Shown one piece after another: positions 15,412-29,858 of a stretch of 33,009 nt of DNA. Position 1 is the first letter of the stretch; every line of letters begins with the position of its first letter. A program made the translations under genes and the position numbers. Origin of the DNA: a virus; IMG/VR virus record IMGVR_UViG_3300042555_001626, positions 1 through 33,009 of that record; one strand, given 5' to 3'. The notes under the pieces are model-generated. The model saw only the letters and a program-made list of their open reading frames with translations. It was not told the DNA's origin and searched no databases.

Positions 15412-15442
15412 TATATTTGTGTAGTTTAGTGATGAGCAATCT

Positions 15443-15465: not shown

Positions 15466-15466
15466 G

Positions 15467-15496
15467 TGTAACAAAGCAAAAGATTTAAGTTTTATA
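15467..15496 (+). promoter_or_regulatory. Late promoter L1 (TGTAAC / GTTTTATA)
   Basis: TGTAACAAAG at 15467 and GTTTTATA at 15489-15496, with the ATG at 15500: the TGTAAC-to-ATG distance is 33 nt, as in L2-L5. It heads the tail operon. Confidence 0.68.
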
Positions 15497-15499
15497 TAT

Positions 15500-16222
15500 A
15501 TGGAGAAAACCATCATAGTCCCAACCTCGTTAAAAGATATAACCCTATATCAGTATTTGGAGTATGAAAAATTGCCTGATACATTGGATGAATTTAGTAG
15601 AGCAATTCAAACCATTAGTATTTTTTGTAATGTGACTACAAACGAAATAAGAAAGTATCCTTACAAAGTAGTCGAAGACATATTATCTAGTATTCAAAAA
15701 GCATTGTCCGAAGATTGTCCCTTTGAAAGAGTATTTGAATTTGAAGGCAAAAGGTATGGATTTGTACCAAATCTAGATGAAATGAGTACGGCTGAGTTTG
15801 TTGATATTGATAATTACCAAAGAGATAGAGATAACTTGTATAAGGTAATGTCCGTATTGTATAGGCCAATATATCAAGAGGAAGGTAAAACCTATGATAT
15901 TGTCACATATGATGGTAAAATCAATGAAAGTTTTAGAGAATTGCCAATGACCTATGTAAAAAATGCCATTGTTTTTTTTTGCAATTTAGGAATAGACTTG
16001 TTGAATTATATAAAGAAGTCTTTAGTGGAGGAGAAGCCGAAGGACTCAGTAATGCTGGAGTTACAGCGTTTGGCAAAAAATGGGGATGGTATGGATTCCT
16101 TTATGGTTTATGTGGAGGAGACATACTCAAGATTGATGAAGTGGTACGCCTCCCTATACACAAAACATTATTGTGGCAGAGTTACATACTTGACCTACAG
16201 GAAGTTCAGAAATCAGAATTAA
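15500..16222 (+). CDS. Tail assembly chaperone, unshifted product
   Basis: ATG 15500 is set by L1; the frame is open upstream but that part overlaps the terminator. The 240-residue zero-frame product has MEKTIIVPTSLKDITLYQYL, FERVFEFEGKRYGFVPNLDE and AIVFFCNLGIDLLNYIKK. Position between terminase and tape measure, with a shifty T-run near the C-terminal third, matches the gpG/gpGT tail-chaperone system, which holds tape measure and tail tube proteins before assembly. A domain-level match is not visible by eye; the frameshift and gene order carry the call. Confidence 0.6.
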   Translation: MEKTIIVPTSLKDITLYQYLEYEKLPDTLDEFSRAIQTISIFCNVTTNEIRKYPYKVVEDILSSIQKALSEDCPFERVFEFEGKRYGFVPNLDEMSTAEFVDIDNYQRDRDNLYKVMSVLYRPIYQEEGKTYDIVTYDGKINESFRELPMTYVKNAIVFFCNLGIDLLNYIKKSLVEEKPKDSVMLELQRLAKNGDGMDSFMVYVEETYSRLMKWYASLYTKHYCGRVTYLTYRKFRNQN

Positions 16223-16245
16223 ACAAAATAAATGGAAAGAGATAA
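15500..16245 (+). CDS. Tail assembly chaperone, -1 frameshift product
   Basis: A run of nine T at 15972-15980 is read as GTT TTT TTT TGC in frame zero. A slip of -1 on T-TTT-TTT (15973-15979) continues as TTG CAA TTT AGG and reads to a stop at 16243-16245, giving 248 residues. The -1 frame from 15979 encodes a convincing domain: LQFRNRLVELYKEVF, AFGKKWGWYGFLYGLCGGDI, HKTLLWQSYILDLQE. That FGKKWGWY...GDI pattern is familiar from Bacteroidota phage tail genes. The frame has no good start of its own, which supports expression by frameshift. Confidence 0.65.
15972..15980 (+). promoter_or_regulatory. Programmed -1 ribosomal frameshift site
   Basis: Nine consecutive T in the chaperone gene provide a T-TTT-TTT slippery heptamer in the right phase. 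I see no strong stem or pseudoknot downstream by eye. A single-base length error in this homopolymer is the alternative and would fuse the frames without a slip. Confidence 0.6.
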
Positions 16246-16726
16246 AAACCATATAGGCACAGTTATAAATTATTTCAAGGATGTTGCTACTCATATGGGG
16301 GCTAGATTTAGTCATGGCAATATTACCGAAATGAATTTTAGAAGTGCCTTAGTATATCCGTATATTCATATAAATATTGGTCAAGTAAGTGTTACTAATC
16401 AAGTAGTTTCGTTTAGTATAAACTTGTTAGTAGCAGATAGAGTTAATACAATTACTACAGAAAACCAAGGATTGAATGAGCAATTGCTTTATGATGAAAT
16501 AGGTTATACGGAGAACAATAACTATGCAATGGTTTTGCAACAATTGTATGTTGACCTTGTAATTTCATTAAGGAAGTATGAAGAGCTGTACTATAATTCG
16601 TTGGAAATTCTAAAGCCATATAATTTGACTCCATTTGAGGAAAAGTATGATGATGTATTAGCAGGTTATACATGTACAATCAATATTGAAGTTGTTTCAC
16701 CAATTGTAACCGATGGATTTTGCTAA
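16232..16726 (+). CDS. Head-tail or tail completion protein, 164 residues
   Basis: The product reads MERDKNHIGTVINYFKDVAT, SALVYPYIHINIGQVSV, VVSFSINLLVADRVN, ENQGLNEQLLYDEIGYTENN and ends INIEVVSPIVTDGFC. An N-terminal helix, then beta strands with VYPY and NLLVADR, resembles small proteins encoded between tail chaperone and tail tip genes in Bacteroidota phages, probably tail terminator or completion proteins. It overlaps the frameshifted product by 14 bp and the next gene by 14 bp. Confidence 0.6.
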   Translation: MERDKNHIGTVINYFKDVATHMGARFSHGNITEMNFRSALVYPYIHINIGQVSVTNQVVSFSINLLVADRVNTITTENQGLNEQLLYDEIGYTENNNYAMVLQQLYVDLVISLRKYEELYYNSLEILKPYNLTPFEEKYDDVLAGYTCTINIEVVSPIVTDGFC

Positions 16727-17261
16727 TACAAATAAAGTATTGAGAAACATGGCGGTGTTTCAAGCAAACCAAATGAGAATTAATTTGGGTGCTAAAGTAA
16801 CTCGTAAAGTGTATAGGTCTCAATGGCAAAATGGTAATCCTAAAAATGTTACTGTTAAAACAATAAGAGCAAACCATATTGCTAGTGGTCAATTGGTCAA
16901 TAGCATAAAACCAACCTATGAAAATGGGGAATTTGGTGTTTCTATGTTAGATTATGGGTTTAATGTAAATGATGGGAGAGACAAAGGCAAAGGTATACCA
17001 CCTGATGTTATGCTTAATTGGACTAGTGTTAAAGGTATTAGGCCTAGAAATTTAATAAATGGTCAATTTATAAAAAATACTATGAACAATCGTAAAGCCA
17101 TGGCATTTTGTATGAATAGAAAGATTAAGTTTTTTGGTATTGAAGCATTTCCTTTTATTGATATGAGTGTTGATGTAACTGAGGAGAAATTCGAAAATGA
17201 TTTAAATGATGCATTAGAGAATGATGTATATGATTATGTAAAAAAAATATTTAAAGAGTAA
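16713..17261 (+). CDS. HK97 gp10-like tail/neck completion protein
   Basis: The 182-residue product has an N-terminal helical part, ASGQLVNSIKPTYENGEFGV around residues 52-71, LDYGFNVNDGRDKGKGIPPD (74-98), and a C-terminal AFCMNRKIKFFGIEAFPFID. The order 'S-G-x-L-x-x-S-I, then Y/D-G, then GRD-KGKGIP, then RKI...GIE..PF' is typical of HK97-gp10-like proteins, which sit at the head-tail joint and help finish the tail. It is flanked by overlapping tail genes. Confidence 0.65.
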   Translation: MDFANTNKVLRNMAVFQANQMRINLGAKVTRKVYRSQWQNGNPKNVTVKTIRANHIASGQLVNSIKPTYENGEFGVSMLDYGFNVNDGRDKGKGIPPDVMLNWTSVKGIRPRNLINGQFIKNTMNNRKAMAFCMNRKIKFFGIEAFPFIDMSVDVTEEKFENDLNDALENDVYDYVKKIFKE

Positions 17262-18370
17262 TGCCAACAAGTATAATAGTTCAGCCTAGTAGTATAAAAG
17301 GTGCATATAGTTCAATGTTGTATCAGGCTTATGATACCTCATATGCTAGTTCAGGGTTTTATTACCAATATAAAGTATATGTATGGAGTGGTACAACAGC
17401 AATACCTGCCACACCGATTGCAACAATTCAAAGATTGCCCGATGTATATGCTAGTAATAGAAGTTTCATAGATATAAGTAAGATTGTTACACAATATATC
17501 CAAACGGAATGGTTCACAATAGGTGCAAGTAACCCTACAATTAGTTTAGGTTCTGTATATGCATGTGTAAAAGTACAAGGTATATGGAGTGGAGGGTCTA
17601 GTGTTGAGATAACTAGTAATGTTATATTAGCGACTAAAGGCTATGAATACACTTTAGATGGATTTAACCAAGCAACTAGTAAGAGAGTATTAACGGATAG
17701 AAGTACATTATATTTGACTACCGATACAGCATATGATTATTTATGGTATGATGCAACTAAGATAACAAGTATAAACATTGGTGCAACAGTAGTTACTCCT
17801 AGTGCAGTTACAAATAGTAGTAACTATATACAAAGTATTGAGTTAAGGTCTAGACTAACTACTGCAGGATTATGGGGGCAAAATTGTGATATTGTTTTTA
17901 ACTATAGTGGTGGTAGTCAAACTATTAATGTAGTATTTGATTGTGTAAACAAGTATGGATGTCTTTCTTTATTTTATAAAAATAGATATGGAGTAATAGA
18001 ATGTCTAAGTATGAATGCTTTAAGTAAAGTTGCAATGACAACTACTAAAGAGAACTTTTACAAAGGAGTTTATGCTCAAGCAAATATGGCAGATGCATGG
18101 TCTTATGGGGTTAGAGTTAATTCGTTGTATAACATACAAGGCGTATATAAATTATTAGCGAATACAAATTGGATTACAGAGTCTTATGTAAATATCGTTC
18201 AACAAATACTTTTGAGTGATGTATGCTATGCTATATACGATTCTAAGACTTATGCTTGTCAGATAAGTGATTCGTCAATGGATAAGAAAACTTACAAGAA
18301 TGATAAGTTAATTATGTACACCATGAATTTTGAATTTGCTCAACCTTTAATCAATAGCATAGTAAGATAA
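17261..18370 (+). CDS. Structural tail protein, 369 residues (distal tail-like)
   Basis: A beta-rich product with few charges: SIIVQPSSIKGAYSSMLYQA, QRLPDVYASNRSFIDISKIV, ILATKGYEYTLDGFNQ, and a C-terminal MYTMNFEFAQPLINSI. PDVYASNRSFIDIS and ATKGYEYTLDGFN are stretches I associate with Bacteroidota phage tail proteins that precede the large tail-tip gene. It shares single-base overlaps with both neighbours. A distal tail or baseplate component is the best guess; the family has no better name that I know. Confidence 0.6.
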   Translation: MPTSIIVQPSSIKGAYSSMLYQAYDTSYASSGFYYQYKVYVWSGTTAIPATPIATIQRLPDVYASNRSFIDISKIVTQYIQTEWFTIGASNPTISLGSVYACVKVQGIWSGGSSVEITSNVILATKGYEYTLDGFNQATSKRVLTDRSTLYLTTDTAYDYLWYDATKITSINIGATVVTPSAVTNSSNYIQSIELRSRLTTAGLWGQNCDIVFNYSGGSQTINVVFDCVNKYGCLSLFYKNRYGVIECLSMNALSKVAMTTTKENFYKGVYAQANMADAWSYGVRVNSLYNIQGVYKLLANTNWITESYVNIVQQILLSDVCYAIYDSKTYACQISDSSMDKKTYKNDKLIMYTMNFEFAQPLINSIVR

Positions 18371-21036
18371 TGACCTATTTTAGTATAATTATAGATGGAT
18401 ATCTTGTAGACTTGTATGAAGATGAAAGTGTACAATTAAATAGACAGATTAAAGACTATTCTAAGATAGATACAGTATTTACAGACTTTTCGCAAAATTT
18501 TACGATACCAGCAACGGACAATAATAACGCTATATTTCAAAATTTTTTTGATGAGAATGTTTTGTTACAATCATGGAATCAAAATTATGCATTGAGTTCG
18601 CAAATATTTATTCATGGCTTACCTGTATTTAATGGGAAAGTTGAATTGCTTGAAGTCAAGTTTACTGATGGTTTGCCAAGTAGTTATAATATTGTATTTT
18701 ATGGTCAAGGTAAAAATGTTCTAGTTGAATGGGGTGATAAGACATTACCTGAAATAGATTGGAGTTCTTATGACCACATGATGATGACTTCATTAGCATT
18801 ATCATCTTGGTATGGAGGTTTGTTAGGTGGTTCAATTGTATGGGATTTAAAAGATTATGGTTTAGGCTATAATTGGAGTACGGCAAATGTTACCAATAAT
18901 ATAAGAAAAGCAAATACAATCAATTGGCAAGACCTTAGACCTAGTATTTTGCTTAAAGATATGATTACAAACATATTTGTTAGTGAAGGATTTACTCTAG
19001 GAGGCTCTTTGCTTAGTAGAAGTGAGTTTACTAATTTGTATGTCACGCCAATGAATGTTGCTGGTCCGTATCGTAATAATATAACAGGCACATTGTATGG
19101 TAATTTTGTTGCAGATAATGGTGGTTTATTGTATAATATATTTAGACCTACTAATACACAAGCAACTTGGTTCACATTGCCCGTTGGTTCTAATATTGTT
19201 TCGGGGAATACTAGTGGTGCATGGAGTACAACTAATTATGAATACACATGCCCAGAAAATGGGGATTACCAATTTGAAATCGATATTATAAGTTATAATC
19301 CATTGCCGACAACTTTTACGCCTAGATTAAGTATTAAAGCCGTTGTCAATAATAAAGTATATGGATATTTTAGAGCAGGCGATAGTGCTTATTGGGCAGG
19401 TAGTGGTCCAGAAAGTTTTCTTATTAAGAATCTAAATAAAGGTGATATTGTTAAATTGATTTACAATACACCTATAAATGCAACAGTAAATGGTACTTTT
19501 AGTTGTACATGGTCACCACCTACATATCAAGTATATGTAGTAATGGCTAATGTAATGCCTGAGATAAAAGTTAGTGAATTTTTTGAATCGGTGTTACAAA
19601 CCTTTAATGCAGTCTTAGTACCAACAGGATTAAATTCATTTGAGTTACATAATATAGATGATTGGTATGCTAGTGGTCAAAATGTAGAATACACAGAGTT
19701 TATAAATTTCAAATCGTTGACTCACAAAAAGATGCCTATTGCTAATTTTGTTTCTATGGAACATGAAAAAGGAGAAACAATAGCACAAACATTTTTTGCT
19801 AATACATACAAGAGAGAGTTTGGTAGTGTGACTTTTAAACCTGATGTTGATTTTGCTGATGAGCCAATTGAGTTTAAGACAAAATTCCAAATTAACCCAG
19901 TAACTATTTTAAGAAAGGTTAACCAAAATGGAATTGTACTAGGAGACACAGATTTGGAAATCCCTTTCCTAATTGATAAAGAAGGCAAAGCAATTCAACA
20001 AAAGTTGAGTTTGTTCTATTTTTGTGGAGTTGTACCATGTTCTTATCAATGGTATTTTGGTGGCATTGCATTGAATACTTATCCAAAGAGTAGTACATTT
20101 AGTGCTAATGTAAGTGGAGGCTATAGTTTAGGTTTTGGTTTGGAGAACAATAGATTTGGTGATATGCCTGCAAATACTTTGTATTTCAATTTTTGGAATA
20201 AGTATATAAGTAGATTGTATTCAACTAGAAGTCGTATTGTTATAGTTGATGCAGTATTACCTGTAGGAGTTTGGTTAAATATGAAACTAAACGATAATGT
20301 TGCTATAAGTGGTAATTATTACAAGATTCAAAAAATCCAATATGATTTACTTAGTCAACAAGCAGTTATCGAATTGATAACCTACCCTAATGTGAATATA
20401 TTGCAAGTTACAAGCACTTCAGGTAACAAGCCTACATTCAATACTATAGTTGGAACTGATGGTGGTAAGACCTTTATAGATGGTAATCCTATTAAGAAAG
20501 GTATTGGTAATGCTATTTTACAAGGTGGGATATTTGCAACGGATTCGGTTGACCCAATTAACATGAATAATTCGTTGACCTATGAATTGATTAGTGTAAG
20601 AGACAATTATATACCAACGCTTAGTTTAAATAAAGTTAGTGTATGGTGGTATAATTTGCAGCCATGGAGTTTAACCCCAGTACCTGCTCCAATTTATTTA
20701 GGAGAATCAGGATTTGAAGGTGATAGTTCATATTATACTATAGACTTTTTGAATAGTCAAGTTACAATCAATAGTACAGGTCAATATCGTTTTATAGGTG
20801 CAATTACAGTAGATGTTCCTGCAAGTCATTGGTTAGCATTATATATAAGTATAGATGATATTGAAACTGAAGCCTATCAAGAGGTTAATGGTAATCAAGT
20901 GCATAGTGTATCATTGTATGGTAGTGCAACCATAGGAGAAGGTTCTAATGTACAGATTCGTGCAAATACATTAGATGGTGGGACACATGTTGTAGATTTT
21001 TTAAGAAGTTCGTTAATAGTTGAAAGAATAATATGA
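18370..21036 (+). CDS. Large tail-tip/baseplate protein, 888 residues
   Basis: The N-terminus IDGYLVDLYEDESVQLNRQI, followed by TVFTDFSQNFTIPATDNNNA and FFDENV, is typical of the big tail-tip protein of Bacteroidota siphophages. The middle includes FSGQ-like strands (YNIVFYGQGKNVLVEWGDK) and a hub-like part ending near KLNDNVAISGNYYKIQKIQY (about residue 640). The C-terminal third (NILQVTSTSGNKPT onward) is Gly/Ser/Asn-rich and beta-sandwich-like, ending in TFLRSS-type carbohydrate-binding-like strands. It should form the tail tip that contacts the host surface. It ends with an ATGA overlap into a small gene. Confidence 0.7.
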   Translation: MTYFSIIIDGYLVDLYEDESVQLNRQIKDYSKIDTVFTDFSQNFTIPATDNNNAIFQNFFDENVLLQSWNQNYALSSQIFIHGLPVFNGKVELLEVKFTDGLPSSYNIVFYGQGKNVLVEWGDKTLPEIDWSSYDHMMMTSLALSSWYGGLLGGSIVWDLKDYGLGYNWSTANVTNNIRKANTINWQDLRPSILLKDMITNIFVSEGFTLGGSLLSRSEFTNLYVTPMNVAGPYRNNITGTLYGNFVADNGGLLYNIFRPTNTQATWFTLPVGSNIVSGNTSGAWSTTNYEYTCPENGDYQFEIDIISYNPLPTTFTPRLSIKAVVNNKVYGYFRAGDSAYWAGSGPESFLIKNLNKGDIVKLIYNTPINATVNGTFSCTWSPPTYQVYVVMANVMPEIKVSEFFESVLQTFNAVLVPTGLNSFELHNIDDWYASGQNVEYTEFINFKSLTHKKMPIANFVSMEHEKGETIAQTFFANTYKREFGSVTFKPDVDFADEPIEFKTKFQINPVTILRKVNQNGIVLGDTDLEIPFLIDKEGKAIQQKLSLFYFCGVVPCSYQWYFGGIALNTYPKSSTFSANVSGGYSLGFGLENNRFGDMPANTLYFNFWNKYISRLYSTRSRIVIVDAVLPVGVWLNMKLNDNVAISGNYYKIQKIQYDLLSQQAVIELITYPNVNILQVTSTSGNKPTFNTIVGTDGGKTFIDGNPIKKGIGNAILQGGIFATDSVDPINMNNSLTYELISVRDNYIPTLSLNKVSVWWYNLQPWSLTPVPAPIYLGESGFEGDSSYYTIDFLNSQVTINSTGQYRFIGAITVDVPASHWLALYISIDDIETEAYQEVNGNQVHSVSLYGSATIGEGSNVQIRANTLDGGTHVVDFLRSSLIVERII

Positions 21037-21203
21037 TAAATGAAATTATAAGATTAGTACAATCGAATGATTGGGTATTGGTATCAGAAAATGTAGAGAT
21101 TGCTAAAGGCAAGTATAAAATCAAAACTAGAAAAGAGAGGGTTCAGTATAAATTAAAAAGAGGGTTTATAAAATTATGTCTAAGGAAGTTAAAGTTAATT
21201 TAA
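21033..21203 (+). CDS. Small basic protein, 56 residues
   Basis: ATG 21033 overlaps the previous stop (ATGA) and encodes MINEIIRLVQSNDWVLVSEN, then EIAKGKYKIKTRKERVQYKL and RGFIKLCLRKLKLI. It overlaps the tape measure start by 28 bp. Very Lys/Arg-rich at its C-terminus. No family recognised; the position before the tape measure might suit a small tail assembly factor. Confidence 0.5.
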   Translation: MINEIIRLVQSNDWVLVSENVEIAKGKYKIKTRKERVQYKLKRGFIKLCLRKLKLI

Positions 21204-23083
21204 AAGCCAAAGCCGAAGGGTTTAAGGAAGCACAAGATAGTGTAGATAATTTAGGTAATAGTGCCAATAAATTTGAAGGTTTATCAGGCAAGTTAGATAA
21301 ATTAGGGAATAGTGTAGGTCAATTACCTGGTCCTGTTGGTAATGCCACAAAATCATTTACCGACTTAGGCAAACAATTGTTGCAATTGTTAAAAAATCCT
21401 GTTGTATTAGTCATTACAGGTTTAGTAGTTGCATTTAAAACTTTGTATGAGGCGTTAAAGTCAACTGAAGAAGGACAAGATAGATTAAATAAAATAACAG
21501 GTATATTTAAGGCTATCATTTCACCAGTAGTTAAGATAGTACAAGACTTTGCTATATTTTTAGCAGATAAGTTTATTGTAGTATTAGAACAAGTAGCAAA
21601 TTTATTTGGTATAGCAGGTGATGAAGCAAGTAGTTTAGCAGATAGTATTAAGGAGGTCAATGATGCAGAAGATGAGTTAGCCGTAAAAAGAGCAAAACAA
21701 AATAAAGACTTAGCAGAAACGAAGGAAATCTTGAACGATACTACCAAAAGTGTTGATGAAAGAAGAAAAGCATTAAAGAAGGTACAAGATGCAGAAACCG
21801 AATTGGCTGCAGAGCAAGTTCGAATTAATAAAAAGAAGATTGACAATATTAAAGAGGAGATTAAAAGAGATGGCGAATCAAAAGAACTTAAAGATAAATT
21901 AAAAGAAGCCACTATTGGTCAAATAGATGCAGAGGCAGACTTGTCTAATAAGAAGTTACAATTTTCTAAAGTGTCTAAAGCATTAGATAAAGAAGAACAA
22001 GCAAATGCAAAAGCAAAGAGTGATAAAGCAAAAGAAATAGCAAAAGAAAGAAAAGCATTATTAGACCAAGAATTAAAAGATAGAATAGAGATTGCCAAAA
22101 AAATTAGAGCATTAGAAGATAAAGCAGAATTAGATGCTATAGATAATGAAAGAGATAGAGCAATTAAACAATTGCAATTTCAAAAAAGGGATGCTTTAGT
22201 TGAATTGAATGAGTCAAAGGCTAATGCAAAAGAAAAGGCTAAAATTAAAAAACTTATAGATGAAGAGTACATAAGAGATAGTCAAAAAATCTATAAAGAT
22301 GCTGCTATTAAAGATGCTGAAGCAGCAAAAGCATTGTTGTTAAAACAAGAACAAGAAGCCAAAGATAGACAAAAAGCGGAAGAAGAGGCTATTGACATGA
22401 AATATGCTAAGAGAAAATTAGCAAGTACAAAAGCAATTAATAATGAGAAAGATTTACAAGATACATTAGCACAAGATGAAAAGAATAGATTGTATGATAT
22501 ATTAGTATATCGTAAGAGTATTGGAGCAGAGACATTAGATATAGAACAAAAGATTGCAGAATTTAGACAAGCAGAAAATGCAAAACAAATTGCTAATGAA
22601 GAAGCATTGTTAGAGAAGAAAAAGCAACAAATGGCTTCATCGTTAGATGCTACTAAGCAATTTTTTGGTGCTGTAGCAACTATAGCAGGTGAATCTAGTA
22701 AAGCAGCAACTGCCGCAGCAATTGGTACAGCAATTATTGATACATATGTAGCAGCAAACAAGGCTTTGAAATCGGATGTTCCTTTTCCGTTTAACTTTAT
22801 ATTGATGGCTAGTACATTAGTTACAGGTTTTGCCAATGTCAAAAAAATATATGATGAGGCAAGTAAAATGGGAGCAGAAACTGGTGGAGGTTCAGTAGGA
22901 GGTGCTAGTGCAGGGCCTTCTATTAGTATAGCAGGAGGTCAAGTAGATAATGCTACTCAATTAAGTAAGTCTGTTGGTAATGCAGTAAATAGACCTACAA
23001 AGGCTTATGTTGTTGGCAATGATGTTAATTCACAACAAAGTTTAGATAGGAGAATAACACAAAATGCAACATTAGGAGGGTAA
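21176..23083 (+). CDS. Tape measure protein, 635 residues
   Basis: Long, Ala/Lys/Glu-rich and mostly coiled coil (about residues 160-490), with a hydrophobic stretch at 76-93 (PVVLVITGLVVAFKTLYE), a second near 495-560 (FFGAVATIAGESSKAATAAA, FILMASTLVTGFA) and a Gly-rich end (GGGSVGGASAGPSIS, NATLGG). This is the standard plan for siphophage tape measure proteins, which set tail length and may form a membrane channel at DNA injection. At about 1.5 angstrom per residue, tail length would be near 95 nm (estimate). It lies downstream of tail-tip genes, the reverse of the lambda order. Confidence 0.85.
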   Translation: MSKEVKVNLKAKAEGFKEAQDSVDNLGNSANKFEGLSGKLDKLGNSVGQLPGPVGNATKSFTDLGKQLLQLLKNPVVLVITGLVVAFKTLYEALKSTEEGQDRLNKITGIFKAIISPVVKIVQDFAIFLADKFIVVLEQVANLFGIAGDEASSLADSIKEVNDAEDELAVKRAKQNKDLAETKEILNDTTKSVDERRKALKKVQDAETELAAEQVRINKKKIDNIKEEIKRDGESKELKDKLKEATIGQIDAEADLSNKKLQFSKVSKALDKEEQANAKAKSDKAKEIAKERKALLDQELKDRIEIAKKIRALEDKAELDAIDNERDRAIKQLQFQKRDALVELNESKANAKEKAKIKKLIDEEYIRDSQKIYKDAAIKDAEAAKALLLKQEQEAKDRQKAEEEAIDMKYAKRKLASTKAINNEKDLQDTLAQDEKNRLYDILVYRKSIGAETLDIEQKIAEFRQAENAKQIANEEALLEKKKQQMASSLDATKQFFGAVATIAGESSKAATAAAIGTAIIDTYVAANKALKSDVPFPFNFILMASTLVTGFANVKKIYDEASKMGAETGGGSVGGASAGPSISIAGGQVDNATQLSKSVGNAVNRPTKAYVVGNDVNSQQSLDRRITQNATLGG

Positions 23084-23094
23084 TAAATTTTATT
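23065..23094 (+). promoter_or_regulatory. Late promoter L2 (TGCAAC / TTTTAT)
   Basis: TGCAAC at 23065 and TTTTAT at 23088-23093, ATG at 23098: the same 33-nt spacing as L1, with one change in the first box. It overlaps the end of the tape measure gene. Confidence 0.55.
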
Positions 23095-23097
23095 AGT

Positions 23098-23388
23098 ATG
23101 CAAAAGAAAGGCAAAAGAATAGAGTTTGGTAAAATTGATGATGTTGAAAATATGGTTAAAGGACTTTCAATGTCATTGCCAGATTTAGAAACTAAACTAA
23201 ATGAAATTCAATTGAAGGTTAAATCTAATTTAGATGGATTAAATAGTATGTCTACAGAAATGGACATGTTAGAAAAATTGTCTAAAGGTATTGGAGACCA
23301 AAGTGTAATTGATAGAATTGCTAGAGGTAAAAAACTATTAGCAGAAAAAATTAGTTTGTGTAATAAATTGTTTTCAAGAATTAAGTAA
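23098..23388 (+). CDS. Small coiled-coil protein before the protease, 96 residues
   Basis: MQKKGKRIEFGKIDDVENMV is followed by long heptad-like helices (LETKLNEIQLKVKSNLDGLN, LLAEKISLCNKLFSRIK). Basic and helical, no other motif. It has its own late-type promoter (L2) and overlaps the protease start by one base. It may be a head assembly factor; function unknown. Confidence 0.6.
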   Translation: MQKKGKRIEFGKIDDVENMVKGLSMSLPDLETKLNEIQLKVKSNLDGLNSMSTEMDMLEKLSKGIGDQSVIDRIARGKKLLAEKISLCNKLFSRIK

Positions 23389-23987
23389 TGCAAATTTTAG
23401 AATTAATATTGGATGAGCAACAAATGTCTAGTGGCATAGATGCTATTAGTATTGTAAAATCCCCTGCAATTGAATCCAATTTTATTGCCCTTAATAACCA
23501 TAAAGTAAAGTTCGCAACAGTCGACTCAGAGAAAAGAATATTGTTAGGCCCAGCATTAGTCCCTAATAAACCTATCTATAGAAACCAAGATGGTCAAGAA
23601 TTTTATTGTTATTTTTCTAGAAGTACTGTTAAGAAAGCAAGTGAACTTTATTTACAAAGAGGAAACCAAAACCAAGCAACTTTAGAACATGCCGTAAAGA
23701 TTCAAGGTTTATGTTTGGTAGAAACTTGGATTAAAGAAGACATGGAAAAAGATAAGTCAGCATTATATGGAATGACTGACCCAATTGGAACATGGATGGT
23801 TGCTATGAAAGTTGAAAACAATGAAGTTTGGAATGAATATGTTAAAACTGGATTAGTTAAAGGTTTTAGTATAGAAGGTTATTTTGTAGATAAAAGTACA
23901 AAGTTATCTAATCAAATATCTAATGAAGATAGATTGCAACAAGTTATGTCTATCTTGACCGAATACAAAAATGTAACAAGTAAATAG
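23388..23987 (+). CDS. XkdF-like prohead protease (Peptidase_S78_2)
   Basis: The 199-residue product follows the XkdF-like putative serine protease family: LILDEQQMSSGIDAISIVKS, PAIESNFIAL, then ILLGPALVPNKPIYR (residues 50-64), EFYCYFSRSTVKKA, LEHAVKIQGLCLVETWIKED (His near 102), GTWMVAMKVENNEVW and KGFSIEGYF with the candidate nucleophile Ser. It should cleave scaffold and perhaps capsid N-termini during prohead maturation. It lies just before the scaffold and capsid genes, as expected. Confidence 0.85.
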   Translation: MQILELILDEQQMSSGIDAISIVKSPAIESNFIALNNHKVKFATVDSEKRILLGPALVPNKPIYRNQDGQEFYCYFSRSTVKKASELYLQRGNQNQATLEHAVKIQGLCLVETWIKEDMEKDKSALYGMTDPIGTWMVAMKVENNEVWNEYVKTGLVKGFSIEGYFVDKSTKLSNQISNEDRLQQVMSILTEYKNVTSK

Positions 23988-24001
23988 TATAAAGTTTTAT
24001 A
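23972..24001 (+). promoter_or_regulatory. Late promoter L3 (TGTAAC / GTTTTATA)
   Basis: TGTAACAA at 23972, GTTTTATA at 23994-24001, ATG at 24005, spacing 33 nt. It overlaps the last codons of the protease gene and drives scaffold and capsid. Confidence 0.65.
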
Positions 24002-24004
24002 GTT

Positions 24005-24637
24005 ATGAATGCAGAAACCACATTGAATAGAGTTATGATTGCATTAGGCTTGAAAAATCAAGACGAAATGCATAAAGTAGAACTAGAGCAAAAAAAGACT
24101 GAAGATGGTCAAGCCATTTTTGATGCTGAAAAGTTTGAAGTTGGTAGTCCAATATTTGTTGTTACTCAAGATGGTAACATCCCTGCACCAATGGGAGAAT
24201 ATGTAATGGAAGATGGCTTAGTAGTATCAGTAGATGATAAAGGATACATTGCAGAAATTTCTACTAAAGAAGAAGAAATTGCCCCAGAAGAAGAAACCGC
24301 TATGCAAAATGACCCAATGAAAGAAGAGACAGGTAAGCCTGTTGCTTCAGAATCTAGCATGGAAGCAAAGCCTAAAAAAATGACCGAAACCACAAGTAAG
24401 ATTATGGAATATAGTTCAGATAAACTAGTTGAATTTGAAAAATCACTAGAAGCAATGAAGATGCAATTATCAGCATTGTCACAAGAAAATGAAGAATTAA
24501 AGAATAGATTAGCCACCGAAGAAGCACCTCGTACTTTTCATTCACCTGAAGCAAAAGTAGAGAAGTTGCAATTTAAGATTGGCGAAAGAAGACAAGAATC
24601 TGTTACAGACAGAGTATTTAACCAATTGTTTAACTAA
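24005..24637 (+). CDS. Capsid scaffolding protein, 210 residues
   Basis: A hydrophilic, acidic protein with a short N-terminal helix (TLNRVMIALGLK), a beta-rich part (VGSPIFVVTQDGNIPAPMGE), an acidic low-complexity middle (KEEEIAPEEETA), and a coiled coil at about 135-175 (SSDKLVEFEKSLEAMKMQLS, ALSQENEELKNRL). This is the usual composition of scaffolds. Position between protease and major capsid gene supports it. The QDGNIPAPMGEYVMEDG block is one I have seen in Bacteroidota phage scaffolds. Confidence 0.78.
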   Translation: MNAETTLNRVMIALGLKNQDEMHKVELEQKKTEDGQAIFDAEKFEVGSPIFVVTQDGNIPAPMGEYVMEDGLVVSVDDKGYIAEISTKEEEIAPEEETAMQNDPMKEETGKPVASESSMEAKPKKMTETTSKIMEYSSDKLVEFEKSLEAMKMQLSALSQENEELKNRLATEEAPRTFHSPEAKVEKLQFKIGERRQESVTDRVFNQLFN

Positions 24638-24643
24638 AAAAAG

Positions 24644-24657
24644 AAAATAAAATAAAG
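24644..24657 (+). promoter_or_regulatory. A-rich initiation region of the capsid gene
   Basis: AAAATAAAATAAAG lies directly before the capsid ATG and is shared, almost base for base, with the tail tube gene leader (25638-25655). In hosts without Shine-Dalgarno use, A-rich leaders favour initiation. Confidence 0.45.
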
Positions 24658-25575
24658 ATGAAAGACTTAAAAAATATCAAGTTATCTGGTCCTACAGTAT
24701 CTCCGAATACATATGCAGGTCAGTTTAGTGGCAAATACATTGCCGCAGCCCTTTTAAGTGGTGAGACACTTTCAAAGGAATTAATTACTGTTCACCCAAA
24801 TGTTGCTTACAAAGAAGTAATTCGTAATTGGCAAAACACAGTTGCTGTAACCGCAGCGACTTGTGATTACACCGATTCAAGTACTGTATCATTAGGTGAG
24901 TATGTTTTAACAACTACAGAATTGCAAGTAAACTTAACTTTGTGTAAAAACAACCTAAGAACAACTTGGGAAGCAGCACAAGCAGGTTATAGTGCATTTG
25001 AAAAATTGCCTAGTTCATTTGAAGAGTTTTTATTAGCACAAGTAGCAGCCGAGGTTGCTCAAACAGTAGAATTAGGTATTTGGAAAACTAATACATTCTA
25101 TACTGGTGGTATGGTTCAGTATTTGATTGACAATTCAGCAATCACTAGACCATTCGCAGGTGCTACTACAGGTTCAAATGTTGTTGCTCGTATGCAAGAA
25201 GCATTAGATTACTCTCCTGCAGCATTGTATGGTAGAGAAGGATATCAATATTATGTTGGTCCAGCAACAATGAAAGCGTATCAAGCAGCATTATCTGCAG
25301 GTAATTATAATTTCCAATTCTATGTTGGAGAAAAACCAATGAATTTCCAAGGTATTCCTGTGACTATGTGTCCTGGTTTAAATGATTACGATTGTGTATT
25401 AGGTTTAAAATCAGATTTACACTTTGGTACAGGTTTATTGTCAGATTACAACCAAGTTCAACTGTTAGATATGTCTAATATCGATGGCAGTCAGAATGTG
25501 AGAACAATCATGCGTTTCACTGGTGGTTTGTTAGCAACTAACCCAACTCAACAAGTTGTTATCAATGTAACCTAA
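24658..25575 (+). CDS. Major capsid protein (HK97-like)
   Basis: The 305-residue product contains FSGKYIAAALLSGETLSKEL, TVHPNVAYKEVIRNWQ (about residues 43-58), TWEAAQAGYSAFEKLPSSFE, GREGYQYYVGPATMKAYQAA and a C-terminal MRFTGGLLATNPTQQVVINV. Helix-plus-strand distribution and length fit an HK97-type capsid protein without a large delta domain; KYIAAALLS...VHPNV is typical of Bacteroidota phage capsids. It is preceded by scaffold and protease and followed by a strong terminator, as befits the most abundant virion protein. Confidence 0.85.
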   Translation: MKDLKNIKLSGPTVSPNTYAGQFSGKYIAAALLSGETLSKELITVHPNVAYKEVIRNWQNTVAVTAATCDYTDSSTVSLGEYVLTTTELQVNLTLCKNNLRTTWEAAQAGYSAFEKLPSSFEEFLLAQVAAEVAQTVELGIWKTNTFYTGGMVQYLIDNSAITRPFAGATTGSNVVARMQEALDYSPAALYGREGYQYYVGPATMKAYQAALSAGNYNFQFYVGEKPMNFQGIPVTMCPGLNDYDCVLGLKSDLHFGTGLLSDYNQVQLLDMSNIDGSQNVRTIMRFTGGLLATNPTQQVVINVT

Positions 25576-25602
25576 TAGATAGTAAAGATTTAGATTGAAT
25601 AT

Positions 25603-25630
25603 GGGAGGGTATAATCCCTCCCTTTTTTTT
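25603..25630 (+). terminator. Strong terminator after the capsid gene
   Basis: GGGAGGG (25603-25609) and CCCTCCC (25616-25622) with a 6-nt loop and eight T. It separates capsid from tail tube transcription; no clear promoter is visible before the next gene, so some read-through is implied. Confidence 0.92.
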
Positions 25631-25655
25631 AAAATTAATAAAATAAAATAAAGAT

Positions 25656-26213
25656 ATGGCATGTAATACAATTGATGCTCGTTTAGAGCCATGTAAAGAA
25701 TACCTTGGTGGGATACAAGGAATGTTTTTAATCCCTTATGTTTGGAGTGATGTTATCACTGTAAATGTAGATGGTGCAGTAAGTAAAATTGCCCAAAGTG
25801 GTGGTGTTACTAATGTTACAGGTTATTTTTGGGAGTTAAAAGGTGCAAACACTTTTGCAGATACGATTACCTCTAGTAGAGATAATGGTACTACTTTCCA
25901 TGAATCTAACTTGACTGTTAAATTTAAGCCAAAGTCACAAGCAACACCTTGGTATGATACCAAAGATGTTGAAACACTTGCAACTGGCCGTTGGAGAGTT
26001 GTAGTATGGGATAGAAATGACAACTTTTGGTTATTAGGCGAAGAGTTCGGTTGTGATGTTACTACAGGTAGTGAAGATTGGGGTGTTGCATTAGGTGATG
26101 CTCGTACTTATACATTGTCATTTATTGCACAAGAGAAATATGGTCCAAGACCTTTAGCATCTGTGACATATGCAGGTTTGAGTACAATTTTTACAATTGA
26201 CGCCACACCATAA
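25656..26213 (+). CDS. Major tail (tube) protein, 185 residues
   Basis: A beta-rich product: MACNTIDARLEPCKEYLGGI, QGMFLIPYVWSDVITV, VTGYFWELKGANTF, SNLTVKFKPKS, GRWRVVVWDRNDNFWLLGEE, ARTYTLSFIAQEKYGPRPLA. The GGIQGMFLIPY opening and the late TYTLSFIAQE strand are what I expect from Bacteroidota phage tail tube proteins. It stands between two strong terminators with an A-rich leader like that of the capsid gene, in line with high expression. Confidence 0.7.
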   Translation: MACNTIDARLEPCKEYLGGIQGMFLIPYVWSDVITVNVDGAVSKIAQSGGVTNVTGYFWELKGANTFADTITSSRDNGTTFHESNLTVKFKPKSQATPWYDTKDVETLATGRWRVVVWDRNDNFWLLGEEFGCDVTTGSEDWGVALGDARTYTLSFIAQEKYGPRPLASVTYAGLSTIFTIDATP

Positions 26214-26237
26214 TAGAGTGATTATATATATAGAGAG

Positions 26238-26259
26238 AGGGGCTTATGCCCCTTTTTTT
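26238..26259 (+). terminator. Terminator after the tail tube gene
   Basis: AGGGGC (26238-26243) and GCCCCT (26248-26253) with a TTAT loop, then a U-tract to 26259 that runs into the TGTAAC box of L4. Confidence 0.9.
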
Positions 26260-26260
26260 G

Positions 26261-26290
26261 TGTAACAAAGTTTGTGTTTCTTGTTTTATA
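26261..26290 (+). promoter_or_regulatory. Late promoter L4 (TGTAAC / GTTTTATA)
   Basis: TGTAACAAAG at 26261, GTTTTATA at 26283-26290, ATG at 26294, spacing 33 nt. Like L1 it is fused to the tail of a terminator (TTTTTTG-TGTAACAAAG in both). Confidence 0.68.
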
Positions 26291-26293
26291 AGT

Positions 26294-26641
26294 ATGGTTA
26301 TCAATAACAGTACTACTAGTATAAGTTTTAGACCTTTGATTTATTTCGATGGTAACCCTGTAAACTTGTATATAGAGCATAAACCAACAAAGACTACAAT
26401 AACATCATTGAATGTAGTTCCTAGTATAAATGGCACTCTAGTTACTCTAAGTGTACCTAGTTTAGCAAGTATCAATAGTGTTGCTAACCAATTAGATGAA
26501 TTGAATGTTAGAGTTATTCGTAATAATGTCATGTTATTTGAGTATCTTGCATATTGGGTAAGTGGTAGTTTGAATCAATACAAGCAATGGAAATCTTGGA
26601 CAACTACTGCGGATAATAGTAAGAATTGGATTACAATGTAA
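26294..26641 (+). CDS. Structural protein before the portal, 115 residues
   Basis: ATG 26294 is fixed by L4; a longer frame from 26246 would include the terminator. The product reads MVINNSTTSISFRPLIYFDG, IEHKPTKTTITSLNVV, LDELNVRVIRNNVMLFEYLA and ends SWTTTADNSKNWITM: beta strands throughout and an aromatic C-terminus. The C-terminal 'YKQWKSWTT...W' style recurs in this phage's small virion proteins (for example TYTTWNL and ETWNL endings). Probably a minor head or tail component; no firm family. Confidence 0.6.
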   Translation: MVINNSTTSISFRPLIYFDGNPVNLYIEHKPTKTTITSLNVVPSINGTLVTLSVPSLASINSVANQLDELNVRVIRNNVMLFEYLAYWVSGSLNQYKQWKSWTTTADNSKNWITM

Positions 26642-28422
26642 TGAGAAAAGTAAAAAAAGCACCTTCGTACCACATTATTAATATGGCTTCGTATACAAGT
26701 CCTAGTATTGTTGAGCAAAACAATAAGGATTGGGTAGAATACGGAGAAGACAATAATTATTTTCAGTATTTGATAGATTTGTATTATGGTTCACCAACTA
26801 ATAATGCATGTATTAAAGGTAAGGCTGACTTAGTTTATGGCAATGGCCCAGAAATAGTAAAAGCAGATAGACACTTAAAAGGCTATCTTGATTTTAAGAT
26901 TATTTTTGGGGATGAACAAGTAAAAAAATGTGTAATGGATTTAGTAATGTTAGGCATGTGTGCTTTTCAGTTAGTGAAATCCAAAGATGGTAAAAAATAT
27001 GTTAAAGCGTACCACTTTCCTATACAAACATTAAGACCTCAAAAGGCTAATGATAAAGGAGAAGTTGAGAAATGGTATTATTGCCCTGATTGGAGTAAAA
27101 TGAAAAAAGGTTACAAGCCTCAAGAGTTTGCAGCCTTTGGTTATGATGATAGTGCTAAAGAATGCATGTATGTCATTAGACCATATAGTACAGGTAATTA
27201 CTATTTTAGTCCACCCGATTACCAAGGTGGCACTCAATATTGTGAATTAGAAGGTGAAATTAGTAATTATCATTTAAATAATATAAAGAATGGTTTAGCG
27301 CCTAGTATGTTGATTAACTTCAATAATGGTGAGCCACCCGAGGAGACTAAAGATGCAATTGAGGCACAAATCAATGCAAAGTTTGGAGGTTCTAGTCGTT
27401 CAGGTACTGCAATTATTGCTTTTAATGATGGTAAGGAAAATGCCGCAGACATAACACCTGTTGCATTAAGTGATGCACATAATCAGTATCAATTTTTAAG
27501 TACCGAATGTGTAGACAAGATTTTATTAGCACATAGAATAACTAGTCCTTTGATATTTGGTGTTAAAAATAGTGGTAGTGGATTTTCTAGTAATGCCGAT
27601 GAGTTAAAGACTGGTTTAAATGTATTTGAAAATATCGTAATTAGACCTTTTCAGCAATTATTGATTTCAGCATTTAATGAAGTGTTGTTGTTTAATGGTT
27701 ACATGGTTGATATTTACTTCAAGTCATTAAATCCATTAGATGTTGTTGAATATGGAGTTGATACTCCAAAAAAAGTGGCTATGTCTAAAATAGAAGACAC
27801 TAAGATTGAAATGTCTAATGAAGATGAAGAACATTGGATTAGTCATTTATCAAGTGTTGGTGAAAAGATAGATTTAGATGAGTGGGAATTAGTAGATGTT
27901 CAACAAGTTACTGATGATGAGCCATACAAATTTGCTTATGATAACCCTAGTTTAAAAAGTAAAGATGATAAAGGTATTTTCAAAATTAGATATAGATATG
28001 GCCCACATGTAACTAGTGACAATAGTAGAAAATTCTGTAAAGAGATGGTTTCTATGTCTAAAAGCAATGTTGTATTTAGAAGAGAAGACATTGACATCAT
28101 GAGTTTTAATGGTGTAAATGGTCAATTTGCCCCTGAAGGTTCAAGTAATTATAGTATTTGGAAATTTAAAGGAGGTGTATATTGTCATCATCAATGGGAA
28201 AGAGTAACATTTAGAAGAAAGTATCAAGAAGGTAAAGGAGGTAAAGTATTGCCGTTAACACCAAGTGAAAAAAATAGTGATAAGAGAGATATGAAAAATT
28301 ACACACCTGTAAGTAATGATAGTGCTGACAATGAAGGTGTTCCTTTCAATCCACCTAGTTGGGATACAGCAAGTACAAAGACAATAGATTTACCAAACCG
28401 AGGCAGTTTAAAGAATAAATGA
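26641..28422 (+). CDS. Portal protein with an extra C-terminal Cys/His domain
   Basis: From ATG 26641 (TAATG overlap) the 593-residue product has a portal body: NNKDWVEYGEDNNYFQYLID, SPTNNACIKGKADLVYGNG, DLVMLGMCAFQLVKSKDGKK, YHFPIQTLRPQKA, SDAHNQYQFLSTECVDKILL and SPLIFGVKNSGSGFSSNADE, the last a portal signature. It forms the dodecameric DNA gate. From about residue 425 (EPYKFAYDNPS) a second domain follows: YRYGPHVTSDNSRKFCKEM, VVFRREDIDIMS and VYCHHQWERVTFRRKY, a Cys/His-rich module I have seen attached to other Bacteroidota phage head proteins. A TTG 15 bp upstream is a poorer start. Confidence 0.8.
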   Translation: MRKVKKAPSYHIINMASYTSPSIVEQNNKDWVEYGEDNNYFQYLIDLYYGSPTNNACIKGKADLVYGNGPEIVKADRHLKGYLDFKIIFGDEQVKKCVMDLVMLGMCAFQLVKSKDGKKYVKAYHFPIQTLRPQKANDKGEVEKWYYCPDWSKMKKGYKPQEFAAFGYDDSAKECMYVIRPYSTGNYYFSPPDYQGGTQYCELEGEISNYHLNNIKNGLAPSMLINFNNGEPPEETKDAIEAQINAKFGGSSRSGTAIIAFNDGKENAADITPVALSDAHNQYQFLSTECVDKILLAHRITSPLIFGVKNSGSGFSSNADELKTGLNVFENIVIRPFQQLLISAFNEVLLFNGYMVDIYFKSLNPLDVVEYGVDTPKKVAMSKIEDTKIEMSNEDEEHWISHLSSVGEKIDLDEWELVDVQQVTDDEPYKFAYDNPSLKSKDDKGIFKIRYRYGPHVTSDNSRKFCKEMVSMSKSNVVFRREDIDIMSFNGVNGQFAPEGSSNYSIWKFKGGVYCHHQWERVTFRRKYQEGKGGKVLPLTPSEKNSDKRDMKNYTPVSNDSADNEGVPFNPPSWDTASTKTIDLPNRGSLKNK

Positions 28423-28423
28423 T

Positions 28424-28936
28424 ATGCAGATAAATGACAATGTTCTTTTAGTTACAAAAGAAGACTTATATAAGTATACTCAATTAAAGGCAAATGTTGA
28501 CATTGACCATATCAGTCCGTTCATCAAGGTTGCACAAGATATTGAAATTCAAAGTGTTTTAGGTACAGTATTGTATAGGAAGATTTTAAATGATGTTCTA
28601 ACAAATACACTTAGTGGTAATTATTTGACATTGGTAAGTACCTATATACAGCCTATGTTAATTCACTATGCTATGGCAGATTTTATCCAATTTCATGGAT
28701 ATGAAGTGAGCAACGCTGGGATCTTGAAGAACAATCCCGAAAATACAGTAGTGCCTGACAAGGGCGAGATAGATATTTTAGTAAAGAGATATAGACAAAT
28801 AGCAGAAACTTATAGAAGAAGACTAGTAGATTATATTACATTGAATGTTAGTCTTTACCCTGAGTACACCGCTTATCAAAATGGTGGTGAGTATCCGTTT
28901 AGCACTCCAACAAATTACACAACATGGAATTTATGA
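28424..28936 (+). CDS. Head-tail adaptor (DUF6712-like), 170 residues
   Basis: VTKEDLYKYTQLKANVDIDH, SPFIKVAQDIEIQSVLGTVL, YIQPMLIHYAMADFIQFHGY and NAGILKNNPENT follow the helical pattern of Bacteroidota phage adaptor proteins (connector between portal and tail). It starts 1 bp after the portal gene. The ending NYTTWNL repeats the aromatic tail seen in neighbours. Bases about 28700-28760 look richer in G and C than their surroundings and include the only GATC I found. Confidence 0.72.
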   Translation: MQINDNVLLVTKEDLYKYTQLKANVDIDHISPFIKVAQDIEIQSVLGTVLYRKILNDVLTNTLSGNYLTLVSTYIQPMLIHYAMADFIQFHGYEVSNAGILKNNPENTVVPDKGEIDILVKRYRQIAETYRRRLVDYITLNVSLYPEYTAYQNGGEYPFSTPTNYTTWNL

Positions 28937-29055
28937 AGAAGATGCAATACAAACCTAAAGAAGATAATATAAAAAAATTGAAGCAATATTTTAGTAAAAT
29001 CGTAAAGTATGAAAATGAGAAAAATAACAAAAGTGTATCTACACTATTTAAATAG
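28933..29055 (+). CDS. Possible 40-residue basic protein
   Basis: ATG 28933 overlaps the adaptor stop (ATGA) and encodes MKKMQYKPKEDNIKKLKQYF, ending NNKSVSTLFK. It overlaps the next frame by 47 bp, so one of the two starts may be wrong. No motif. The ATGA overlap is the main support. Confidence 0.4.
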   Translation: MKKMQYKPKEDNIKKLKQYFSKIVKYENEKNNKSVSTLFK

Positions 29056-29284
29056 TCTTGATAATTTAAAAGGCTATCATTTTATTCTAAGTGAAATGAT
29101 TATTACACCTATGAGTATTTCGTTAGCAAGTGAGATTGACAATGATATAGAGGCTTTGCACATAGCAAGTTTGTATTCAGAAGAAATCCCAAAAGAAGCA
29201 ACTATGATAGTTGAAGCATTAGATTTAAAATGCGAGATTCAAGTAGTTAATGAAGTAACCACTAAAAAGTCGACCAAAAAATAG
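29009..29284 (+). CDS. Hypothetical protein, 91 residues
   Basis: MKMRKITKVYLHYLNSLDNL, then GYHFILSEMIITPMSISLA and EIDNDIEALHIASLYSEEIP, with a Lys-rich end TTKKSTKK. No membrane segment or catalytic motif. It lies between the adaptor and spanin genes and overlaps both neighbours. Function unknown. Confidence 0.55.
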   Translation: MKMRKITKVYLHYLNSLDNLKGYHFILSEMIITPMSISLASEIDNDIEALHIASLYSEEIPKEATMIVEALDLKCEIQVVNEVTTKKSTKK

Positions 29285-29685
29285 TGAGAATAATTGTATT
29301 AATAATATTGTTAAGTTCATGTAGTGCTAATTGGCACTTAAAAAGAGCATTAATCAAAGACCCGTCTTTGTTTAGGCCTAGAACTTATGTTATTGATACA
29401 GTAATTGTAAAAGATTCATTTACTAAGGTTGATACATTTACCCTAAATGAAGTTGATACCTTTGTAACAGACACTGGTAAAGTTCGATTGACTATTTATA
29501 GAAATAGAAACTTCTTTAAAACTAAGATTGAAGTAAAGAGTGATACTATAAGAATTAAAGAGTCAGTTGAAATGCCACCACAAATAATTTATAAAGGTAG
29601 TAAAGGTGAATCTAAATGGTATATGGCAATAATTAGTTTTTTAGTAATAGTAATTTTGAGTATATTATGGAGAAGAAATTGGTAA
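29284..29685 (+). CDS. Candidate unimolecular spanin (lipoprotein plus C-terminal membrane helix)
   Basis: From GTG 29284 the 133-residue product has a lipoprotein signal ending in a lipobox, IIVLIILLSSC with Cys13 as the lipidated residue, then a periplasmic part of beta strands (VIDTVIVKDSFTKVDTFTLN, TGKVRLTIYRNRNF) and a C-terminal membrane helix at about 112-129 (WYMAIISFLVIVILSILW) followed by RRNW. An outer-membrane lipid anchor plus an inner-membrane helix is the layout of u-spanins such as T1 gp11, which fuse the two membranes in the last step of lysis. It is not beside the endolysin, but on the circular map lysis genes lie only about 3 kb downstream. Confidence 0.72.
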   Translation: MRIIVLIILLSSCSANWHLKRALIKDPSLFRPRTYVIDTVIVKDSFTKVDTFTLNEVDTFVTDTGKVRLTIYRNRNFFKTKIEVKSDTIRIKESVEMPPQIIYKGSKGESKWYMAIISFLVIVILSILWRRNW

Positions 29686-29822
29686 CCCCTAGTAGAACAA
29701 GTCCAAAGCCTGGCTCTGGTCGTGCTTGTTTATGTAAAGATAAGCAAACATATGATAAGAAATGTTGCGATGGTTCTTTATGGGCGCAGGGTATTGGACA
29801 AATTACTAAAACATTGCCATAG
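29667..29822 (+). CDS. Cys-rich 51-residue protein
   Basis: ATG 29667 overlaps the spanin end by 19 bp and encodes MEKKLVTPSRTSPKPGSGRA, then CLCKDKQTYDKKCCDGSLWA and QGIGQITKTLP. The C-x-C...CC arrangement with DGSLWAQGIG is a stretch I associate with small Bacteroidota phage proteins of unknown role. The four cysteines might hold a zinc ion or disulfides. It is cotranscribed with the spanin. Confidence 0.65.
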   Translation: MEKKLVTPSRTSPKPGSGRACLCKDKQTYDKKCCDGSLWAQGIGQITKTLP

Positions 29823-29825
29823 AAT

Positions 29826-29855
29826 AGTAACAAAAACAAGAATTAATATTTTATA
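29826..29855 (+). promoter_or_regulatory. Late promoter L5 (AGTAAC / TTTTAT)
   Basis: AGTAACAA at 29826, TTTTAT at 29849-29854, ATG at 29859, spacing 33 nt. One base of the first box differs from L1. Confidence 0.55.
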
Positions 29856-29858
29856 AGT

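Follow-up and report, generated by a model that had tools for sequence, protein, structure and literature searches.

Five two-box sites head gene runs in the virion half

How does an uncultured phage turn from its early genes to its virion genes? This question is raised by the complete IMG/VR virus record IMGVR_UViG_3300042555_001626 (33,009 bases, 31.8% G+C), which was analysed over its whole length and is called the window below. An initial annotation had proposed a family of late promoters before five virion genes. We found the sites, at 15467, 23065, 23972, 26261 and 29826, as described: each reads directly as [TA]G[TC]AAC, exactly 17 nt, TTTTAT, 4 nt and ATG, with the first box 33 nt before the start codon and TTTTAT at -10 to -5. 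The spacer had been given as 16-17 nt; it is 17 in all five, and the value of 16 is not borne out. We consider it probable (about 0.8) that these sites are late promoters of the extracytoplasmic function (ECF) type, which would be read by the host core RNA polymerase together with the phage's own ECF-like sigma factor, putatively encoded at 7100-7684. The reality and conservation of the sites, their rigid spacing, the partition of promoter classes, the sigma homology and the presence of the sigma gene in relatives are all read from sequence.

The five sites are on the + strand. Predicted late promoters 1 (15467-15495), 3 (23972-24000) and 4 (26261-26289) have the form TGTAAC-N17-TTTTAT and are followed by the ATGs at 15500, 24005 and 26294, respectively. 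Predicted late promoter 2 (23065-23093) is TGCAAC-N17-TTTTAT with its ATG at 23098, and predicted late promoter 5 (29826-29854) is AGTAAC-N17-TTTTAT with its ATG at 29859. All of them lie right of 15.4 kb, in the virion half, and none is found in the early half (1-15466, + strand), in line with the initial annotation. However, they head five gene runs rather than five virion genes: the first genes of the runs have no clear virion annotation, and the portal, capsid and tape measure genes follow or intervene.

Chance, or coding conservation and kinship without function, might produce such a pattern. The sites at 23065 and 23972 overlap the 3' ends of genes 21176-23083 and 23388-23987, and an unweighted iterative matrix did catch a site-like stretch in the conserved C-terminus of the capsid gene (window 25533-25561 and homologs, 17 records). 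We rejected this stretch as coding conservation, because it is one orthologous place inside a gene, multiplied by kinship. On the other hand, three of the five sites are intergenic, and in 500 dinucleotide shuffles the spacer-17 pair appears 0.044 times on average and once at most, as against five times in the window; the shuffles never exceed two at any spacer from 10 to 25. With spacers of 15-19, the window contains no further box pair on the + strand and none on the - strand. A matrix built from the five sites scores them at 34-39 and the next-best window position at 7.9, a gap that is partly circular, so that the relatives are the real test. Motif discovery on upstream regions, which the initial annotation had suggested, also ranks the late pair first: a prior-free search for 4-mer pairs with a fixed gap and start distance found it at 4 of the 48 called starts in the window, compared to no more than 2 at random positions. 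Gene 26294 was missed by this search because its open frame starts at an earlier ATG.

The sites are conserved in relatives

A search with the capsid protein gave 197 related stretches, and the best 80 of the 197 were scanned as capsid loci. Excluding L001, a copy of the window, [TA]G[TC]AAC-N17-TTTTAT occurs 61 times on the coding strand of these loci and 0 times on the opposite strand, and the other spacers from 8 to 28 each give only 0-6 occurrences. When the third T of the -10 element is left free, 77 of the 80 loci contain one or more sites followed by an ATG after 3-8 nt. A set of 27 records including the window (16 longer capsid-relative records and 10 found via the sigma gene; 744,381 bases) contains AAC-N16-[GA]TT[TA]TAT 84 times on the + strand and 7 times on the - strand, with enrichment at spacer 16 only.

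Orthologs of the five target genes have an exact site in 56 of 71 cases, and a site with at most one mismatch in 64 of 71. By contrast, 20 other window gene positions used as controls have an exact site in 0 of 269 cases and one with at most one mismatch in 4 of 269; equal frequency at non-promoter positions, the outcome that the initial annotation had named as speaking against its proposal, is not what we see. This comparison excluded the window, the four records G034-G037 (discussed below), alignments starting past residue 20 and cases with less than 60 nt upstream. An exact site precedes 19 of 20 orthologs of gene 15500, the single ortholog examined of gene 23098, 13 of 21 orthologs of gene 24005, 15 of 19 of gene 26294 and 8 of 10 of gene 29859; with up to one mismatch, the last three counts become 14/21, 19/19 and 10/10. 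Greedy dereplication kept 37 of the 76 sites. In these 37, the information sits in both boxes, with a weaker A/T preference in the spacer, while flanks and spacers differ from site to site. Judged from these alignments, the late sites are kept by selection, since their position and sequence are conserved across relatives while the spacers have diverged. Given the shuffles, the control positions and the differing flanks, we find chance or function-free conservation hardly credible.

At 23065-23098, the relatives keep the promoter position while the following gene differs. The promoter there seems to outlast its gene.

Host-type sites and terminators mark the two halves

The early half carries another class of sites. 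Six predicted host-type early promoters on the + strand have the form TTTTG-N19-TAnnTTTAC: those at 1028-1060 and 2707-2739 read TTTTG-N19-TAATTTTAC, those at 6318-6350 and 14092-14124 read TTTTG-N19-TATCTTTAC, and those at 10077-10109 and 15094-15126 read TTTTG-N19-TACCTTTAC. Every spacer is 19, and every site is left of 15.2 kb. The one at 6318 lies upstream of the sigma gene, with no terminator-like + strand site between it and 7100. On the + strand of the window, TTTTG-N19-TAnnTTT[GA] matches these six sites only. Across the 27 records it is found, at this single spacer, 34 times on the + strand and once on the - strand (in the window, at 3796), and several records have none. Scans for Escherichia coli-type sigma-70 promoters gave 113 sites in 14001-33009 as against 96.3 (standard deviation 11.2) in shuffles, which is uninformative, and 79 in 1-15600 as against 91.2 in shuffles.

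In a portal search of bacterial genomes, three contigs of metagenome-assembled genomes were found, labelled Bacteroidia, Flavobacteriaceae and Polaribacter; these matches are consistent with a Bacteroidota-type host, and the contigs are possibly stray phage. The available text of one study gives the primary promoter of Bacteroidota as TTTG/TAnnTTTG, at -33 and -7 (PMC6847099). The six early sites match it, except for TTTAC instead of TTTG, whereas the late family has neither its boxes nor its spacing: 0 of the 5 late sites have a TAnnTTTG second box or a TTTTG at 19 nt. The initial annotation was thus right that the motif departs from the host form. A rival explanation accepts the sites as late promoters, but has them read by a host ECF sigma factor, or by the primary holoenzyme of the host, aided by a phage activator that binds the AAC box. 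That the late boxes are unlike the host-type sites of the same genome in both sequence and spacing argues against a host reader.

Predicted intrinsic terminators on the + strand adjoin late promoters 1 and 4. The first (15443-15466; hairpin 15443-15460 plus a T-run; -14.5 kcal/mol, z -3.7) lies between the halves, and the second (26235-26260) has a hairpin of -20.8 kcal/mol (z -6.4). The TTTTTT that had been taken to extend two of the sites is the T-run of these terminators. A third terminator (25603-25630) follows the capsid gene and has no late promoter behind it. A terminator-like hairpin lies within 60 nt upstream of 27 of 76 late sites, as against 29 of 2000 random windows.

This placement bears on the idea that the sites are some other RNA or DNA signal, such as a translation-start element or an RNA processing, packaging or replication site. 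TTTTAT directly precedes the ATG, and translation in Bacteroidota is influenced by AT-rich stretches ahead of the start codon. However, many of the sites directly follow terminators, and within these gene runs the starts of the capsid and portal genes have no sites. Furthermore, the two boxes keep a rigid spacing, although their distance to the ATG ranges from 4 to 7 nt, and a distant box at a constant helical offset is in keeping with a sigma factor bound to DNA. We therefore regard another signal as very improbable. With ECF-type late promoters, the virion half would consist of separate units starting from 15467, 23065, 23972, 26261 and 29826.

A predicted ECF-like sigma factor and its proposed promoters

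The proposed reader of the late promoters is encoded on the + strand at 7100-7684. PHROG, profile and model matches all place it near ECF sigma factors. The protein matches a PHROG RNA polymerase sigma family with an E-value of 6.4e-8. When a profile of 30 family members was compared with PDB sequences, SigW, SigL and RpoE came out on top, SigW and SigL over both domains. The AlphaFold2 model has modest confidence (mean pLDDT 76, pTM 0.39) and consists of two helical domains (residues 5-80 and 95-175) with a low-confidence hinge at 79-93. Foldseek searches with the model gave nine matches at E<=0.001, all of which are ECF-type sigma chains (one, 9n9q_C, is labelled RpoE), at identities of 10-21%. 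The C-terminal domain of the model superposes on region 4 of sigma-E in complex with -35 DNA at a Z of 9.9 and a root-mean-square deviation of 1.2 over 69 residues; the large whole-chain deviation of the matches fits a free hinge between the domains. By homology and predicted structure, the 7100-7684 protein is a two-domain ECF-like sigma factor.

The clade consensus of the late sites is AACA-N14-cGTT(T/A)TAT-N4-7-ATG, in which the first box is nnnAACA and the second is (c)GTT(T/A)TAT. In the available part of a review, AAC at -35 and CGT at -10 are given as hallmarks of ECF promoters, with CGTT for canonical EcfG (PMC8103513). By its sequence, the late-site consensus is of the ECF type, as both box elements are ones that ECF sigma factors read. 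The AAC and (c)GTT of the candidate late promoters would suit the 7100 sigma, and they would also suit a host ECF sigma factor; the link between this protein and the sites is drawn from sequence.

Two findings from the relatives speak against a host reader. The sigma gene, which was searched in the records of 24 of the 80 capsid loci, is present in 16: in 16 of 16 records of at least 18.3 kb and in 0 of 8 records of at most 16.2 kb, which may be too short to reach it. In addition, the -10 base changes across all sites of a record along with the divergence of the sigma factor. Counting only sites with an ATG 4-7 nt downstream, the 61 sites of the window's clade have T as the third -10 base 54 times, A 4 times and C 3 times, while the 19 sites of five records with more distant sigma factors have A 18 times and C once. 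Such a record-wide shift alongside sigma divergence is as expected from a changed trans-acting reader, and it may represent one single event. Within 31 loci around sigma factors of 25-46% identity, the strict motif gave one match at spacer 17; this apparently failed prediction was resolved when the -10 variant GTTATAT was seen in the upstream listings and then counted.

Cultured relatives carry a similar pair

The window had no match in a near-DNA search of the phage collection, and a portal search identified the cultured Persicivirga/Nonlabens phages P12024S and P12024L (genus Inhavirus) at 35.6% identity. In the prior-free search of P12024S, AACA-N16-CGTT is among the top dyads at a fixed start distance (5 of 42 starts, compared to no more than 2 at random positions). 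AACA-N15..17-CGTTA occurs 7 times on the + strand of this phage, and 3 times on the - strand, where none has a near ATG. The seven + sites precede genes starting at 179, 3031, 5412, 21280, 23961, 25201 and 26802, namely gp01 (a protease by Pfam), gp05 (the pre-portal gene) and five others. The gp33 protein, whose annotation reads 'containing Sigma-70 region 2', is a homolog of the window's sigma factor (profile comparison, E 3.5e-14), and PHROG 31712 matches both gp33 (9.5e-113) and the window's protein (9.2e-6). A host-type site, TTG-N19-TATATTTG, lies before gp29, ahead of the operon of the sigma gene.

Thus, P12024S/L share with the window a homologous sigma factor and an AACA/CGTTA pair at a near-fixed distance from the ATG, before seven genes. 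Their sites differ in a spacer about 2 nt longer and in the -10 element, CGTTAnTA. Within the partial texts covered by our literature search, these sites were not found described as promoters. As cultured phages carry the same kind of pair, the proposal can be tested. The joint occurrence of a sigma factor and such sites in P12024S is a further point against a host reader, which we regard as rather unlikely overall.

Observations that weigh against the reading

Several observations weigh against ECF-type promoters read by the phage sigma factor. In the window, G precedes TTTTAT at three sites, but 23065 and 29826 have A in this position, so that the G of the -10 element is replaced at two of the five. 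The prior-free search, extended to ten records, was positive in only two of them, the window and P12024S; G002 tied with the random maximum, and seven were negative. Seven of the 21 orthologs of gene 24005 have no site even when one mismatch is allowed. The 7100-7684 protein itself stays under the Pfam cut-off for region 4 (15.5 vs 25.7 bits), although its homologs in L092 and L091 exceed it. Four records with about 34% identical sigma factors, G034-G037, lack the late-site family, and their four orthologs of gene 15500 carry no site; three of the four have equal match statistics and are probably near-copies. In G035, G036 and G037, the pre-portal gene is preceded by single candidate sites, which are suggestive at most. 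Finally, all conservation counts are drawn from related genomes, close kin included, and do not represent independent events.

Start codons and a proposed early-to-late switch

The distance from the -10 box to the ATG is short and has a sharp lower limit. In the 27 records, an ATG follows at 4, 5, 6 or 7 nt in 41, 18, 13 and 3 cases (75 of 84). In the 80 capsid loci, with the third -10 T left free, the same offsets account for 111, 45, 14 and 18 of 195 + sites, compared to a - strand total of 17. The floor is 4 nt and the mode is also 4 nt in both sets. An RNA start further downstream would lose the AUG at the 4-nt sites, yet for genes 24005, 26294 and 29859 the protein alignments with most relatives begin at residue 1. 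RNA synthesis would therefore start on the A of the ATG or immediately upstream of it. Judging from these distances, we expect late mRNAs with no leader or almost none. Bacteroidota ignore Shine-Dalgarno signals. In Flavobacterium johnsoniae, by the available text, 87% of the transcripts with a probable promoter have leaders longer than 10 nt (PMC6847099), so the predicted late mRNAs would be unlike those of this bacterium.

We infer from these patterns that the sites fire, that the 7100 sigma reads them, when they would be used, and where their transcripts begin. The host enzyme would make the 7100 sigma early, from a host-type promoter, since its gene sits in the half served by such promoters. 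This sigma factor would then steer the host core to the virion half, which the terminator at 15443 would shield from early read-through. Late mRNAs would begin at the start codon or within a few nucleotides of it, because the ATG is only 4-7 nt past the -10 element. The host sigma factor would thus serve the early genes and the phage sigma factor the late genes. The initial annotation had suggested a changed polymerase; conservation and sigma homology support this as the best reading, and we would sharpen it to host core plus a phage ECF-like sigma factor. If true, this would explain how a widespread group of uncultured phages switches from early to late genes, and the transcription units of the group could be predicted from sequence alone. 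The sigma/promoter pair would be expected to be orthogonal to the unusual primary sigma factor of the host, and the placement of the start codons would pose a direct question about leaderless translation in Bacteroidota. More tentatively, and with some doubt, such a pair might be used across Bacteroidota phages, so that the choice of sigma factor also sets the mode of translation through leaderless virion mRNAs, in hosts whose own transcripts for the most part have leaders of more than 10 nt; promoter, start site and start codon would form one unit, and terminator-promoter fusions would split the virion half into dosage units.

Neighbouring genes

Two genes for TET-associated glycosyltransferases (TAGT), a methyltransferase-like gene, a PIG-L deacetylase gene and a gene for a ParB_N protein are clustered in the window (5475-6311, 8697-9479, 9479-10069, 10724-11377 and 8120-8797). 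Together they look like a cluster for the hypermodification of DNA bases. In P12024L, there are a 2OGFeDO oxygenase and a gene whose annotation is HMC glucosyltransferase. DNA modification might play a part in how the late promoters are used. At 10113-10724, the window encodes an MgsA-type AAA+ C-terminal domain (PF12002, E 2.1e-10) without the ATPase part.

We also noticed irregular portal genes in the relatives. In record G026 (L162:4529-6763), about 150 residues are inserted in frame between residues 377 and 378 of the portal, with no Pfam match in the insertion; it may be an intein or another insertion. In G035 (C1:12600-13802) and G036 (C1:25870-27072), the portal match ends at residue 407 of 598 and contains one TAA, so the portal may terminate prematurely or be divided there.

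Comparison with known sigma factors

The bacterial ECF sigma factors SigW, SigL, RpoE/sigma-E and AlgU resemble the 7100 protein in their two domains and in profile and fold matches; their AAC/CGT boxes, as far as the available text describes them (PMC8103513), are like those of the candidate sites that the 7100 protein would read. The 7100 protein differs from them in its very low identity (10-21%) and in being encoded by a phage. Positive autoregulation and a co-transcribed anti-sigma factor were early hallmarks of the ECF group, later dropped from its definition, according to the same partial source (PMC8103513). Autoregulation of this kind is not seen here: no late-type site lies before the sigma gene or elsewhere in 1-15466 on the + strand.

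Among phages of Enterobacteria, sigma factors that come with a set of matching late promoters have been described. Our literature search, as far as its partial texts extend, found no such pair for Bacteroidota phages. The phiEco32 sigma factor phi32_gp36 likewise serves middle and late genes with the host core; unlike the window's sigma factor, it lacks homology to region 4, and the promoter it uses is the single element tAATGTAtA, as described in the accessible part of one source (PMC8948821). The same text describes Salmonella phage 7-11, whose sigma factor SaPh711_gp47 uses the host core at late promoters of the form GTAAtg-16-aCTA (PMC8948821). By this partial account, the window is like 7-11 in a phage sigma factor with region 4, in bipartite sites of fixed spacing (16 nt in 7-11) before late gene runs and in early genes on host promoters; the window does contain a phage sigma gene and a set of matching two-box sites ahead of its late gene runs. 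The two differ in consensus, chiefly in the -10 element (aCTA vs cGTT(T/A)TAT), and 7-11 is a podovirus of Enterobacteria. Leaderless placement was not found reported for 7-11 in the text available (PMC8948821), unlike our prediction for the window. New with respect to 7-11 would thus be an ECF-type AAC/GTT promoter, its occurrence in Bacteroidota phages, and a start codon at the predicted start of transcription.

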